A DNA stretch of 64,000 nt from Natrarchaeobaculum aegyptiacum. Lineage in GTDB: Archaea; Halobacteriota; Halobacteria; Halobacteriales; Natrialbaceae. Shown here one piece after another: positions 26,048 to 31,254 of this stretch; the stretch's first letter is position 1; every line of letters starts with the position of its first letter. Made by a program: the position numbers and the translations under genes. The DNA is taken from positions 2,728,001-2,792,000 of the forward strand of contig NZ_CP019893.1 of the NCBI RefSeq assembly GCF_002156705.1, given 5' to 3'. The notes under the pieces are model-generated. The model saw only the letters and a program-made list of their open reading frames with translations. It was not told the origin of the DNA and did not search any database.

Positions 26048-26176
26048 GCTGGGCCACGCTGTCGTGGTCACCCGAACGACTCTGTCTTCTCGGCAACGGT
26101 CGTCTTGTATAGTATCACTTGGCTTGGTTGAAATGCTTACTGGTTGATAGGTTTCGGCGACCGTGGTGAATGCAGA

Positions 26177-26193
26177 GCGCGAATGTGGCACCA
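26177..26193 (+). repeat. Island repeat, copy R1 (17-base core)
   Basis: GCGCGAATGTGGCACCA, identical over 17 bases to copy R3 at 29838-29854. It is intergenic and on the same strand as the membrane gene that starts 139 bases downstream. Only the core is recognisable here; the longer flank seen in R2 and R4 is absent. Confidence 0.6.
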
Positions 26194-26331
26194 ATCTCAG
26201 TAAAATATGAGCCAGAGAACGGTGGTCGGAATCTAACAAGCACAGTGCCGGGCACAGATGTCCGAGATCGACCTTAGTAGCAAGTGTATCGGATGATTAA
26301 ATAACAGCTGGTGGGGATGGTCCATCGCAAG

Positions 26332-27060
26332 ATGTACAGCAAGGTCGAGAAGGCATTGTTTGGCCGGTTTGGCCTCGCTAGCGACTATCTGACGCAGATC
26401 ATCACACACGCGTTCCTCGTTGTCGGAATCGTCGCTTTCCAATGGAGTGTGTTCGAGATCCTCCTAATCTATGTGCTCGAAATCGCAGTCATTAACGTTT
26501 TGTTCACCTTCGCAGCGCTGTTTGCCGCCCAACCAATCGACGGCCGTGACGCGGAGAAATGGAAGCGGGAACCGAACCCTATCCGGACGATTCCACTTCT
26601 CCCGCCGGTGTACAGACGAAACGTTGGAGTGGTGGTGAAACAGTTCCTCGCGTCGTTGTTCTACCTGTCGATCATCGGCATAGCAGTTGTCGACTTTATA
26701 GAGCAAAGCGTTCTCTCGTTGCTTTCCTCGTCGGCTGGTCTCGCAGTACTCGCTATCTGCATCACACAAACAGCACGCGTCTGGCAACAATTCTTTGCCG
26801 GTCAGTCGTATCGAGAACGATCGCCAGCTGAGGCAATCAAAGCCGCTCAAAAACCGTTGGGAGAGGCTTTGTTTCTGCTATTGCTCGTGATTGTACCGAT
26901 TACGGTTGCTCTAGGAATAACTGCAATCGCAGTAGCTGGAGATGGAGGTGAAATCGAACTCGGTGCTGTTGAGACTGGGGCCGTACTGCTGCTGTATGTC
27001 ATTCCTATCGGCGTAGTCAGAGTATGGTTGCAAGACGCTAAGCTAACGATTATAGACTGA
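26332..27060 (+). CDS. DUF6498-like polytopic membrane protein (island copy A)
   Basis: 242 residues with about six membrane segments. Conserved landmarks shared with its paralogue at 29070: ITHAFLVVGIVAFQW, EIAVINVLFTFAALFAAQPIDG, REPNPIRTIPLLPPVY-RNVG, a basic loop RVWQQFFAGQSYRERSPAEAIK and YVIPIGVVRVWLQ. I recall DUF6498 as a fitting haloarchaeal family, function unknown. ATG 26332 (MYSKVEKALF) aligns with the paralogue's start and sits about 30 bases after TATA-like ATTAAATA (26296-26303); ATG 26317 is possible. Lower GC than flanking genes. Confidence 0.75.
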   Translation: MYSKVEKALFGRFGLASDYLTQIITHAFLVVGIVAFQWSVFEILLIYVLEIAVINVLFTFAALFAAQPIDGRDAEKWKREPNPIRTIPLLPPVYRRNVGVVVKQFLASLFYLSIIGIAVVDFIEQSVLSLLSSSAGLAVLAICITQTARVWQQFFAGQSYRERSPAEAIKAAQKPLGEALFLLLLVIVPITVALGITAIAVAGDGGEIELGAVETGAVLLLYVIPIGVVRVWLQDAKLTIID

Positions 27061-27103
27061 CGAAAAGACCATCGCAACCGCGTACAGAGCAGTTTTAGTT
27101 ATG

Positions 27104-27198
27104 GTGTTGCACCTATCCTCTGAGTGGGGCATGCCACTCTTGACAGAAGCTGGGTAGTTCACACGAGGCGTGCTGAACTCACAGCGCAAATGTTGCAT
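27104..27198 (+). repeat. Island repeat, copy R2 (95 bases)
   Basis: Aligns without gaps to R4 (30441-30535) with about 67 of 95 bases identical by eye. Its core reads GCGCAAATGTTGCAT, a diverged form of GCGCGAATGTGGCAC. It lies between the first island membrane gene and the 94-residue membrane gene, ending 38 bases before the latter's ATG. Confidence 0.65.
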
Positions 27199-27235
27199 AG
27201 TGCTTTTTGAACTGTATGAGAACTACCACAGTACA

Positions 27236-27520
27236 ATGCCCTCCAAAACGGTATTCGACTCGAACTGGAGTTCGAACATTTTTGAGAAGCCAAAAGGGTG
27301 GCCGTATAATGCCGTACTCTTGTTTGCGGCAGCCCTTTCTTTCTTCTTGATGTACACTAGAGAAACAGGGGCTTGGATGACTCTTGGATTTATTTTCATC
27401 GTCTTTGCTATTGGTGAATCGATTCCGTCGGAGCGAACATCGCTCGCAGGAGCCATTCGGGTCGGCGGACTTGGACTTGTCGTCCTTGTTGCTGTTATAA
27501 TCGACTTTGGACTCAAGTAG
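27236..27520 (+). CDS. Small two- to three-helix membrane protein of the island
   Basis: 94 residues. Soluble start MPSKTVFDSNWSSNIFEKPK, then hydrophobic segments NAVLLFAAALSFFLMY, TLGFIFIVFAIGESI and VGGLGLVVLVAVIIDF. I recognise no family. TATA-like GCTTTTTG (27202-27208) lies about 30 bases upstream of ATG 27236, consistent with a leaderless message that begins just after repeat R2. An upstream in-frame start would lie before the promoter. AT-rich codon use sets it apart from the flanking core genes. Confidence 0.65.
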   Translation: MPSKTVFDSNWSSNIFEKPKGWPYNAVLLFAAALSFFLMYTRETGAWMTLGFIFIVFAIGESIPSERTSLAGAIRVGGLGLVVLVAVIIDFGLK

Positions 27521-27694
27521 TACCTTGACAATCAATGCACTCGAGCCGTTCCCGGGTCGATACTGCTGTCGGCTGTCATACCGTTGGTGACACGGCTGCG
27601 GTCGGGATCGGTTCGCATCCGCTGGAGGTCCGTCGAACCGGGCGCGATCGGCCCCACCAAAACGTTGTTTACCACACATGAACAAGACCGGGAT

Positions 27695-28936
27695 ATGCCC
27701 CTGAGTCCGGACCGTCGACTCCAGCTCCGGATCGCATGTGCGCTCGCGCTCGTGATCGGAGTCAACGCGGTCGTTCTGTCAGTGCTCGCCTGGGGTGTCC
27801 ACCGCGGGCTCTCCGCGAGCGGCCACGCGATACAATTCGATCTCGGGCTCCCAGCTACTGTCGGAGCGGTCCTACTCGGCGCGATCGGTCTCGTGGCTGT
27901 CCAGGCACGATACGGGTCGAAGAGAGTCGTCGCGGATCTCGAGACGGAGCCGATCGAGGGTGACGGCCCACGGGATGTCGGCGCGCGAGTTAGACGGCTG
28001 GCAAAACAGGCCGACGTTCCGGTGCCACCTGTGGCCGTCGCCGACCGTGACGAGCCGAACTGCCTGACCATCGGTACCCAACGCTCGCCGACGGTCGTCA
28101 TCACCACGGGATCGCTCAAGCAACTGGACGACGACGAACTCGACGCCGTACTAGCCCACGAGATTGCGCACCTTGCCAACCGTGATCTGACCGTCGTGAG
28201 CGCTGTCGCCGCGATCGTCGCTATCGGTGATCGCTTGCTCGAGCGTGAGCGCACGCTTCGGGAATTTCTCGTATCGATTATTGTCGTCGCATTCTACGCT
28301 ATCGCCGCGTTCTGGATCATCCTCCTGCTGGCAGCACCGTTTCTCGTGATCGCAACGCTGTTCATCTTCGTGAGTGCCGTCGCAAGGCTGTTACTGGCGG
28401 TGAACGCGATTACGATCGGGCTCTTCGCTAAGACGCGCGAGCACGCCGCTGATCGCGGTGCGAGCGAACTGACCGGCGACCCGGCCGCGCTTGCGAGTGC
28501 CCTCGAGACCCTCTCCGGGGATGATCGACCAAACCGAGACGCGCGCCTGGACGCGAGCGCAACGCTCGGCATCGTTCCGCAGTCCCTGTCGGTCGATAGA
28601 TCGGACGATGGCGACGAGGAGGGCTGGTTCGACCGCTGGTTCGTGAGCCAGTTCAGCGCGTTGCGGGAGAATATCTCGAACTACTCGGCCAACGAGGAGG
28701 ACTCCGCGACTCCAGAGTGGCGTGATCAGGAGTCCACAACCGCGGAGTGGCGCGAGCCCGATTACAGTGCCGACGACGAACCGAAGTCCTGGATCGTCGA
28801 ACCGTTCGTAGAGAGCCTCGTTTCCCCAGTCCGGAATCGCGTTCGACGGCTGCTTTCGTGGCGACCCGCGACACATCCCACGACCGAGGCGCGGATCGAA
28901 CAGTTGCAGACGCTCGAGTGGCGGCGACGGAACTGA
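27695..28936 (+). CDS. htpX: HtpX-like M48 membrane metalloprotease
   Basis: 413 residues. The zinc protease motif HEIAH is at residues 155-159, with the third ligand expected in KTREHAADRGASEL. Two hydrophobic segments lie at about 15-35 and 52-70 and a further pair near 190-235, typical of HtpX, a membrane protein quality-control protease facing the cytoplasm. The region after residue 275 is an acidic, repetitive extension (EDSATPEWRDQESTTAEWRE) before a C-terminal HPTTEARIEQL. ATG 27695 was preferred to an extension of 37 residues with no family match. It is in the middle of the membrane-protein island. Confidence 0.87.
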   Translation: MPLSPDRRLQLRIACALALVIGVNAVVLSVLAWGVHRGLSASGHAIQFDLGLPATVGAVLLGAIGLVAVQARYGSKRVVADLETEPIEGDGPRDVGARVRRLAKQADVPVPPVAVADRDEPNCLTIGTQRSPTVVITTGSLKQLDDDELDAVLAHEIAHLANRDLTVVSAVAAIVAIGDRLLERERTLREFLVSIIVVAFYAIAAFWIILLLAAPFLVIATLFIFVSAVARLLLAVNAITIGLFAKTREHAADRGASELTGDPAALASALETLSGDDRPNRDARLDASATLGIVPQSLSVDRSDDGDEEGWFDRWFVSQFSALRENISNYSANEEDSATPEWRDQESTTAEWREPDYSADDEPKSWIVEPFVESLVSPVRNRVRRLLSWRPATHPTTEARIEQLQTLEWRRRN

Positions 28937-29069
28937 CCACCTGGGTCGCAGTGCTGTCGGTCGGCTGTGGTGTGGTTTTCAGCGTCGTGAAGCGTCTCGT
29001 CCGACAGCGGCGGGCGTTCATGACTGGTTACGACAGCCGACCGAAAAATAGGCAGCCCTACCTGCCGGT

Positions 29070-29786
29070 TTACCGCTCATAGGGGAGCGTCACGGTCAAT
29101 CCACCGTTCTGCAGCCAGCCCCTGGCAACTCCGATAGGGATCACATATGCTAATAATACGATAGTCTGTGACTCTATACCGTCTACTGCAAACGCAGCAG
29201 TCACCAGTACGAAGGTAACAGGTACAAATACGAACAAGACTATAACGAGGAGTTCGTGAATTGGCCAAAGGCCGACTTTGATCGCTTCTGCTGGCGACCG
29301 GTTTTGATATGCCTGATCGGCAAGGAACTGTTGCCAGACACGCGATATTTGAGTGATACAAATGGCGAGTATCGCAAGGCCAACTGTTGGCGAAATCAGC
29401 GAGGGTATACTCTGGTTTGTGAGTTGGACTACAGCATGCATAAACGGGAGAATATAGACAAATCCAAAGGGCATGTATTTTAGAAAGATTCCAACATTTC
29501 GATCATACACCGGTGGAAAAAATGGAATTAGCCGAATTGGGGTCGGTTCTCTCTGCCATTTATCGCCGTCATGGCCTTCTATCGGTTGTGCCGCAAACAG
29601 CGCTACGGTTACGAACAGGACGTGAATGACTGCGATCTCGATTAGATAGAGGAGTACTATTTCACCAACTTCCCAATTAAAAAATAGAATTCCAATAACA
29701 AGGAAGAGGTGCGTGATGATTGGAGAAAGATACTCTCGAGAGACTCCAAGTTCATCGGAAATCGTCTCATCAACTCTTTTGGACAT
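29070..29786 (-). CDS. DUF6498-like polytopic membrane protein (island copy B, inverted)
   Basis: 238 residues, paralogous over its whole length to the gene at 26332: ITHLFLVIGILFFNWEVGEI, EIAVIHVLFVTVALFAAQPIEG, REPTPIRLIPFFPPVYDRNVG, RVWQQFLADQAYQNRSPAEAIK and YVIPIGVARGWLQ. About six membrane segments. It is inverted relative to copy A, with the HtpX-like gene between them. ATG 29786 (MSKRVDET) aligns with the other copy; 22 extra upstream codons are open but AT-rich and unlike it. Function unknown; the conserved PIRL-P-PPVY-RNVG loop is probably the functional part. Confidence 0.75.
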   Translation of the reverse strand: MSKRVDETISDELGVSREYLSPIITHLFLVIGILFFNWEVGEIVLLYLIEIAVIHVLFVTVALFAAQPIEGHDGDKWQREPTPIRLIPFFPPVYDRNVGIFLKYMPFGFVYILPFMHAVVQLTNQSIPSLISPTVGLAILAICITQISRVWQQFLADQAYQNRSPAEAIKVGLWPIHELLVIVLFVFVPVTFVLVTAAFAVDGIESQTIVLLAYVIPIGVARGWLQNGGLTVTLPYER

Positions 29787-29837
29787 CTCCTGAATAAGAT
29801 ATAATCGACTCTCCCTATATGTGCTACTGTATATATG

Positions 29838-29854
29838 GCGCGAATGTGGCACCA
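29838..29854 (+). repeat. Island repeat, copy R3 (17-base core)
   Basis: Exact 17-base match to R1. It lies in the divergent gap between copy B (minus) and the 139-residue membrane gene (plus). After the core, GATCGGTCAGTACAGA at about 29880-29896 resembles sequence in the same relative position after R4. Confidence 0.6.
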
Positions 29855-29933
29855 GGTCTGCCTCGGTCTGTAAAGAGATGATCGGTCAGTACAGAAGTCA
29901 CACTTATCACTGGGAGGATGATATATTTGCTTA

Positions 29934-30353
29934 ATGTCCATTCCTGAGTCTGTGCAGTCACTTGCTGACGACGATCTTCGTTCGAGTGCTCTGAGGGGGT
30001 TGTTGATAGCGTTCGCTCTCACCCCAATCCTATTGCTCCCCAGTAATGTTCGAGAAATCACCTCGCCAGAAGCGACTGTGATGGCTCTCGGGCTTGGTGT
30101 ATTGCTTGGAGTCCTACTGAGCTACATTACGGATAATATGCTCCAGCAGAACGATGGGGCAAATTCTACTGTAGCAGGCCTTCTCCTTGCATTGGTCGGT
30201 GGGCTACTTGTCTTTATTGCTGGTATTGGTATTTACGCACTCGGATTAGGAGAAGCGAGTGTTGTCGTCCACTTTGCCTTGGCATTCATCTGGAGTATGG
30301 CACTTACATCAGCAATTCGGCATCTCGGCATGACGGGCACACCCACTAAATAG
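29934..30353 (+). CDS. Four-helix membrane protein of the island
   Basis: 139 residues. After MSIPESVQSLADDDLRSSAL there are four membrane segments: LLIAFALTPILLLP, TVMALGLGVLLGVLLSYI, VAGLLLALVGGLLVFIAGIGIYAL and VVVHFALAFIWSMALTSAI. I recognise no family. The ATG is 80 bases after repeat core R3, and the repeat R4 follows 88 bases after the stop, so the gene is bracketed by two copies of the repeat. TATA-like ATATATTTG lies only about 10 bases upstream, so the promoter is unclear. Confidence 0.65.
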   Translation: MSIPESVQSLADDDLRSSALRGLLIAFALTPILLLPSNVREITSPEATVMALGLGVLLGVLLSYITDNMLQQNDGANSTVAGLLLALVGGLLVFIAGIGIYALGLGEASVVVHFALAFIWSMALTSAIRHLGMTGTPTK

Positions 30354-30440
30354 AACTCCTCTCATCGATTTTGCTGATCAATACGCACGTGGTGTGTGCG
30401 GATGGTTCCTCGCTATTGGTGTGAAACAAACGACATCGTC

Positions 30441-30535
30441 GTGCTGCACTCACCCTCTGAGTCTGTCACGCCGTTTCTGACAGGAATCGGATAGTTCGTT
30501 CAGTGTGTGCTGGACTCACAGCGCGAATGTGGCAC
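30441..30535 (+). repeat. Island repeat, copy R4 (95 bases)
   Basis: Gapless partner of R2. It contains CTGACAG, a GTTC segment and the block GACTCACAGCGCGAATGTGG near its right end. It lies in a convergent gap between the 139-residue and 130-residue membrane genes, so it is not simply a promoter for a downstream gene. Confidence 0.65.
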
Positions 30536-30605
30536 GGACTGAGGAGCGATCAACGTGGAAGATCGAACGGCCAGTACAGAGGCTTCATCTGACACTATGC
30601 TGTTG

Positions 30606-30998
30606 TTATATCGATTCGATTATCTTTGACTGCAGAACAATCTCAATCCGAGCAAGCACAAATGAAAGTACGATGGTCGCAGGTCCAGTTATATACAGGA
30701 AACCGATTAGTGGGTCGCCTGGACCAGGATCCGCCTCCGCTCGAAACCACAACCAGATGCCACAAGCGCAGACGATTACCGGCGTTACAGTCCGATATTC
30801 GATCAGCAACAACGCGGGTACTGCACCTACTACAAAAAACACAGCCAACGGTATGAACCAGACCCATACCGGCTCAAAGAGCTGGTAGGCCTGATTCTGT
30901 GCGTACCAGCCAAGTCCGGCTGCGGTAAGTGTCCCAGCTACAACTGATAACATAATAGCGGCCGTATTGAGTGTCCTCATATTCGGCACCTCAATCAT
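30606..30998 (-). CDS. Four-helix membrane protein of the island
   Basis: 130 residues with four hydrophobic segments: TAAIMLSVVAGTLTAAGLGWY, WVWFIPLAVFFVVGAVPALLL, VIVCACGIWLWF and GFLYITGPATIVLSFVLA. I recognise no family. The N-terminus could be MIEVPNM (30998) or MRTLNTAA (30980). It is the last gene of the AT-rich island, facing the opposite way to the gene at 29934. About 256 bases of noncoding, AT-rich sequence separate its start from the end of the acyl-CoA ligase gene. Confidence 0.62.
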   Translation of the reverse strand: MIEVPNMRTLNTAAIMLSVVAGTLTAAGLGWYAQNQAYQLFEPVWVWFIPLAVFFVVGAVPALLLIEYRTVTPVIVCACGIWLWFRAEADPGPGDPLIGFLYITGPATIVLSFVLARIEIVLQSKIIESI

Positions 30999-31254
30999 TT
31001 CTGATGAATGTAGTCTGATAATGAATGATGATACATCTACCGATACCGTTGCAAAAACCTAGCTCCAGAGTGGGTCACACTGCTACCGATTGCTAAACTC
31101 TCTGTCAAGATTGGGGTTGGACTCGCGCTCTGTATTCAGCAGTCAACTCTTATCATATGCTGAGGGGATCAACAGACTCTAACAACTGAACGGGTTCGCA
31201 TACCGATCACACAGCAGTCATGCGATTGGGTGCGCACTGATCGGTCAGTGGCTT

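Follow-up and report, generated by a model that had tools for sequence, protein, structure and literature searches.

The window analysed here is a 64,000-nucleotide stretch of the Natrarchaeobaculum aegyptiacum genome (contig NZ_CP019893.1, positions 2,728,001 to 2,792,000). Between about 26121 and 31179 it carries genes separated by a repeat that the initial annotation had described as four plus-strand copies of a short core. All four copies were recovered on the plus strand: GCGCGAATGTGGCAC occurs exactly at 26177, 29838 and 30521, and with 3 mismatches at 27184. When up to 3 mismatches are allowed, the 4 window matches are about what chance would give (mean 3.2); the three exact occurrences of this 15-mer lie above the chance expectation. 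Genome-wide (3.93 Mb), the 12-mer CGAATGTGGCAC occurs 6 times versus 0 for the reversed control. Random scatter of the core, raised initially as grounds for dismissing the repeat, does not describe it, the motif being non-random. Copies R2 (27104-27198) and R4 (30441-30535) align without gaps at 67 of 95 positions, as had been claimed, and R3 and R4 do flank the gene at 29934-30353. Elements previously unrecognised are a right half-site (31118-31172) and the two outer ends, near 26121 and near 31179. The features are as follows, S1 and S2 being the two core elements of a site.

26121..26162, plus strand: outer left terminal inverted repeat (GGCTTGGTTGAAATGCTTACTGGTTGATAGGTTTCGGCGACC), a diverged copy of the IS5-type end GGCTCTGTTGAAATCC (TIR HMM match 26121-26181, 41 bits)
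26163..26191, plus strand: S2 core of the left half-site, holding the core 26177-26191 (site HMM match 26144-26202/26210)
26311..27060, plus strand: cassette 1 gene, DUF6498 membrane protein, 249 aa (Pfam PF20108, 3.2e-9)
27104..27198, plus strand: full site R2, with S1 27104-27132, linker 27133-27169 and S2 27170-27198 (HMM match 27097-27199, 78 bits)
27236..27520, plus strand: cassette 2 gene, 94-aa membrane protein (ORF; none above cut-off in Pfam/NCBIfam)
29070..29786, minus strand: second DUF6498 gene, left of R3 (PF20108, 8.6e-11)
29824..29894, plus strand: left half-site R3, with S2 29824-29852 (core 29838-29852) and tail (HMM match 29823/29824-29894, model 96-167)
29934..30353, plus strand: cassette gene between R3 and R4, 139-aa membrane protein (ORF)
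30404..30579, plus strand: full site R4, with S1 30441-30469, linker 30470-30506, S2 30507-30535 (core 30521-30535) and tail to 30579 (HMM 149 bits, the best match in the window)
30606..30998, minus strand: last cassette gene, 130-aa membrane protein in reverse orientation (ORF between R4 and the right end)
31114..31142, plus strand: S1 core of the right half-site (HMM match 31117/31118-31172, model 34-88)
31143..31179, plus strand: outer right terminal inverted repeat (reverse complement GAGTCTGTTGATCCCCTCAGCATATGATAAGAGTTGA; TIR HMM match 31124-31176, 43 bits)

The DUF6498 gene at 29070..29786 is a paralogue of the cassette 1 gene (51% amino acid identity over 241 aa, blastp). An M48 peptidase (protease) gene at 27695-28936 is GC-rich (64%) inside an AT-richer island (about 49-50% GC) and has no bracketing sites. 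No outer terminal repeat was recognisable at R3, and the window end pair (26121/31179) shows a target duplication of only 5/8. Because of these last three features, the array at about 26121-31179 is an old, decayed member of the family described below, and probably a rearranged or double insertion. Further clusters of the extended motif lie in the same genome at 1.126, 1.164-1.167 and 1.766-1.771 Mb, and near 2.593 and 2.847 Mb.

Profile searches on fetched loci showed that the complete site is larger than the unit first described, measuring about 167-175 bp and consisting of head, S1, linker, S2 and tail. The 95-bp block noted initially corresponds to S1, a 37-bp linker and S2, and the 15-base core GCGCGAATGTGGCAC to the right half of S2. 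S1 and S2 (consensus GTGCTGAATACATCCTCTGTATCTAGCAC and GTGCTGAATACAGAGCGCGAATGTGGCAC, respectively) are mutually inverted, and each is a 29-bp imperfect palindrome laid out at about 11-7-11 (arm, centre, arm). The arms are GTGCTGAATAC-type, while the central bases differ, being mostly ANNCTCT in S1 and GCGCNNT in S2 as read from the cassette side. The linker of about 37 bp resembles the right terminal repeat.

In the fetched loci (numbered L below), which were picked for richness in matches so that the figures describe arrays and not average genomes, 208 of 226 neighbouring pairs of sites (150-3000 bp apart) lie on the same strand (binomial p 4e-42). The median interval between same-strand sites is 708 bp, one large ORF is present in 187 of the 208 intervals, and ORF orientation is even (96 same vs 83 opposite). 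The longest array has about 34 same-strand sites (L141-L142). The initial idea that the cassettes are specific for membrane genes did not survive a survey of the cargo: 210 cassette ORFs fall into 171 sequence clusters, including methyltransferases, acetyltransferases, hydrolases, a PAS kinase, DUF6498 and many unknowns. The 121 cassette representatives were likewise diverse, with only occasional transposases, which are probably secondary.

The repeats are intergenic, conserved and located in AT-richer islands, as would suit repeats with a regulatory or small-RNA role (promoter, terminator or riboswitch-like) incidentally flanking horizontally acquired genes. This reading is nevertheless highly improbable: gene orientations are about equal, sites lie both upstream and downstream of genes and on either strand, an Rfam scan of the repeats gave no match, RNAalifold predicted no pairs and no conserved fold for the sites, and terminal inverted repeats with target duplications are present. 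Of the three functions guessed at initially, small RNAs are therefore set aside, whereas recombination sites that shuffle cassettes, as which the copies behave, and a small mobile element are both retained.

Members of the family were found in 116 of the 125 host-family genomes and in 111 of 195 genomes sampled across the order, with sites also on plasmids and contigs from many haloarchaeal genera. Phage records gave no match to the sites. Sites or complete elements were also seen in contigs labelled as Bacteroidales, Thermoplasmata, Elusimicrobia and Planctomycetaceae MAGs (L175, L179, L192, L213), which may reflect either misbinning or transfer.

Many arrays and single cassettes have half-sites on both sides, followed by an inverted repeat starting GGCTCTGTTGAAATCC. 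In a frame picked after several lengths and offsets were tried, among which 8 bp from the GGC terminus (with equivalent shifted frames) stood out, 12 of 30 end pairs carry a target-site duplication matching in at least 7 of 8 positions (permutation mean 0.033, maximum 1, over 1000 shuffles). A first reading as a 6-bp duplication was superseded by 8 bp in the fixed frame. Four of the 12 pairs are perfect, and further perfect 8-bp duplications were found at L256, L257, L259 and L260. Duplications flank single cassettes (L173, L179, L149) as well as multi-cassette arrays (L054, L094, L098).

Natrialba magadii contains a 1471-bp element in two copies (L254/L255) whose ends are those of the cassettes (GGCTCTGTTGAAATCC). 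It encodes a 273-aa IS5-family transposase (NCBIfam NF033579, 3.9e-66) and a DUF4870 passenger. The 8-bp flanks of the two copies have swapped partners and were apparently exchanged between them. L257 is a related IS5-family copy with GGCTCTGTTGAAATCC ends and an 8/8 duplication. The subterminal sequence of the IS5 element matches the cassette head weakly (13.7 and 12.8 bits vs 9.2 for the best shuffled sequence). Judged from sequence, an IS5-family insertion sequence is the likely source of a trans-acting transposase for the cassettes. The checks proposed initially, on cassette ends and on a known insertion sequence, gave a divided answer: cassettes do end at the sites and the outer ends match an IS5-type insertion sequence, but the core was not found in that element, save for a half-site-like stretch in one copy. 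This stretch (L257:1403-1463), made up of the right half of S2 and a tail, lies within the L257 copy after its transposase gene.

The IS6 family, which has similar ends, was rejected as a partner, as only one clear IS6-type end pair was found (L242, GGTCGTGTTTAGTTTG), its ends differ, and two array-rich genomes gave no PF13610 match. Cassette-type ends also bound a 124-bp MITE with a perfect 8-bp duplication (AATTCAAC) and no S cores (L256:552-676), and a 3.6-kb element with MgtE, CBS-domain and PhoU genes in which no S core was detected (L258:563-4137). In two places (L258:563 and L294:1565), related integrase genes are followed, from a few to about 70 bp after their stop codon, by an element end, as if this were a favoured insertion spot.

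Exchange between cassettes was assessed from pairwise identities in 190 full sites. Arm-to-arm identity within one core is uncorrelated (S1, r 0.01; S2, r -0.02). A correlation does appear between the inner arms of S1 and S2, 37 bp apart across the linker (r 0.19, 0/300 permutations), and likewise between the head and S1L (r 0.29), between S2R and the tail (r 0.31) and, weakly, between the outer arms S1L and S2R (r 0.11). Long homologies mostly stop inside or at the S1/S2 cores. Moreover, near-identical linkers join different cassettes at distant loci within one genome, and one cassette was found with different linkers. Together, the linkage pattern, the linkers shared between different cassettes and the single cassette with different linkers point to crossing over in the middle of each core, at exact points that strong core conservation leaves uncertain.

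The well-supported IS5-type ends and 8-bp duplications would equally be expected of ordinary passenger-gene IS derivatives, with arrays built by repeated adjacent insertion and by homologous recombination over the roughly 100-175 bp of shared ends, and with no site-specific recombinase. The S1-linker-S2 unit, a repeat of about 100 bp, is long enough for homologous recombination, the arrays are not linked to a recombinase, and flanks have apparently been exchanged between L254 and L255. Nevertheless, adjacent insertion predicts that every junction should keep both terminal repeats in full along with a target duplication, where a single linker of fixed length and a left end that is shortened are seen, and homologous recombination predicts breakpoints scattered over 100 bp, where linkage is lost across the S1/S2 centres and kept across the linker. 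This explanation is rather unlikely, although it deserves more weight than the regulatory one.

Crossover at the cores would call for a recombinase. No recombinase gene linked consistently to arrays emerged from a similarity search using 22 integrase ORFs, only scattered cases. All genomes tested have tyrosine recombinases, whether or not they have sites, and clustering of PF00589 genes, a weak test as many loci have incomplete ORFs, gave no family separating these two groups. A palindromic-core search of site-free genomes found no dif-like site. At L105:8040-8180, a fragment resembling the L026 tyrosine recombinase was seen by eye to adjoin the left end of an array.

Transposases also insert at the sites. 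A near-identical 346-aa transposase, which we take to be IS110-like by sequence, occurs with a 70-aa companion ORF at L027:6064-7309, L049:11266-12511 and L055:5016-6261; its insertions lie within S cores or within ends, at CTGCTG^, and recall IS1111-type elements, which target attC sites. Another transposase element (ends GGCCGTGTTTAGACGC) lies in the centre of S2 variants at L104:3467-4400, L096:16433-17390 and L090:4663-5655, the L096 insertion having a perfect 9-bp target duplication (CAGGGCGCG). The IS5-type insertions of L104 and L096 had been considered as empty attachment sites and were dropped because they sit in S2 variants.

By their ends, the cassettes fit a passenger-gene IS derivative. 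As in MICs and MITEs, including the gene-bearing haloarchaeal ISH2-type elements (PMC3129680, PMC3119063), the ends are IS-related, the target duplication has a fixed length, no transposase is encoded, a passenger gene may be present and movement in trans is presumed; terminal repeats and duplication length are shared with the insertion sequence. Unlike MICs, which are described as single units, the haloarchaeal units form long one-strand arrays in which neighbours meet at a fixed S1-linker-S2 junction; their cargo is highly varied, and their exchange sites are core-like.

In their working, the arrays are like dif modules or integrons, yet they are neither by sequence nor by linked enzyme. The dif modules (pdif/Xer) of Acinetobacter plasmids are gene modules bounded by alternately inverted sites of about 28 bp, whose arms belong by turns to two module kinds, with exchange in a short centre, and some insertion sequences target these sites (PMC13141974, PMC10132070). 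S1 and S2, inverted two-arm sites of 29 bp with a short centre, share this layout. The haloarchaeal sites differ in sequence, have a centre of about 7 bp and constant linkers of about 37 bp, and their GTGCTGAATAC-type arms do not match the XerC/XerD pdif arms ATTTCGTATAA/TTATGTTAAAT (PMC13141974). Unlike dif modules, the arrays are bounded by transposon ends and are chromosomal as well as plasmid-borne, in Archaea.

True integrons, in which attC sites folded as single strands are recombined by an IntI-type integrase, have the core motif GTTRRRY, which the site consensus lacks. Long arrays in one orientation (208/226 on the same strand) with one-gene cassettes (187/208) and diverse cargo do resemble integrons, which are known from archaeal MAGs (PMC9668308), and carriage between MITE-like ends is possible, as in MITE-flanked class 1 integrons (PMC10969869). 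Here, however, no integrase adjoins the arrays, only scattered integrase ORFs occurring near them; the fold is not conserved; cassette genes face either way; and both array ends are half-sites with transposon ends. An integron origin is largely contradicted by these features and has very little probability.

The preferred explanation, which we hold to be probable, is that a passenger-gene mobile-element family with IS5-type ends has these repeats as its junctions and termini, its cassettes being exchanged in arrays. On the anatomy above, a unit comprises the left end (GGCTCTGTTGAAATCC..., S2 core and tail), one gene either way round, the head, the S1 core and the right end, and enters its target with an 8-bp duplication. 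Because most units encode no transposase, we infer that they are moved in trans by a transposase supplied by an IS5-family insertion sequence with equal ends. Units are joined in same-strand arrays, where S1, the linker and S2 connect adjacent genes. Cassette exchange would then take place through crossover in the middle of the 29-bp cores, with a host-encoded tyrosine (Xer-like) recombinase, acting in trans, as the most likely enzyme. The differing central bases of S1 and S2 would explain the fixed orientation of cassettes relative to the sites.

A more far-reaching version, on which we are evenly divided, is an integron-independent haloarchaeal gene-capture platform in which IS ends enclose an exchange site and a host recombinase loads and reshuffles circular single-gene cassettes, giving mobile arrays of tens of genes. 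A search of open PubMed Central found no description of such a cassette system, and this mobile gene-cassette family, widespread in salt-loving archaea, is apparently undescribed.

Gene exchange is heavy among haloarchaea, and to our knowledge no integron-like capture system is known in them. A cassette family that most host-family genomes and many other Halobacteriales possess, and that carries very diverse genes, would offer a mechanism for haloarchaeal gene flow. It would also offer a ready annotation tool, in the form of one HMM, and a testable two-enzyme model.
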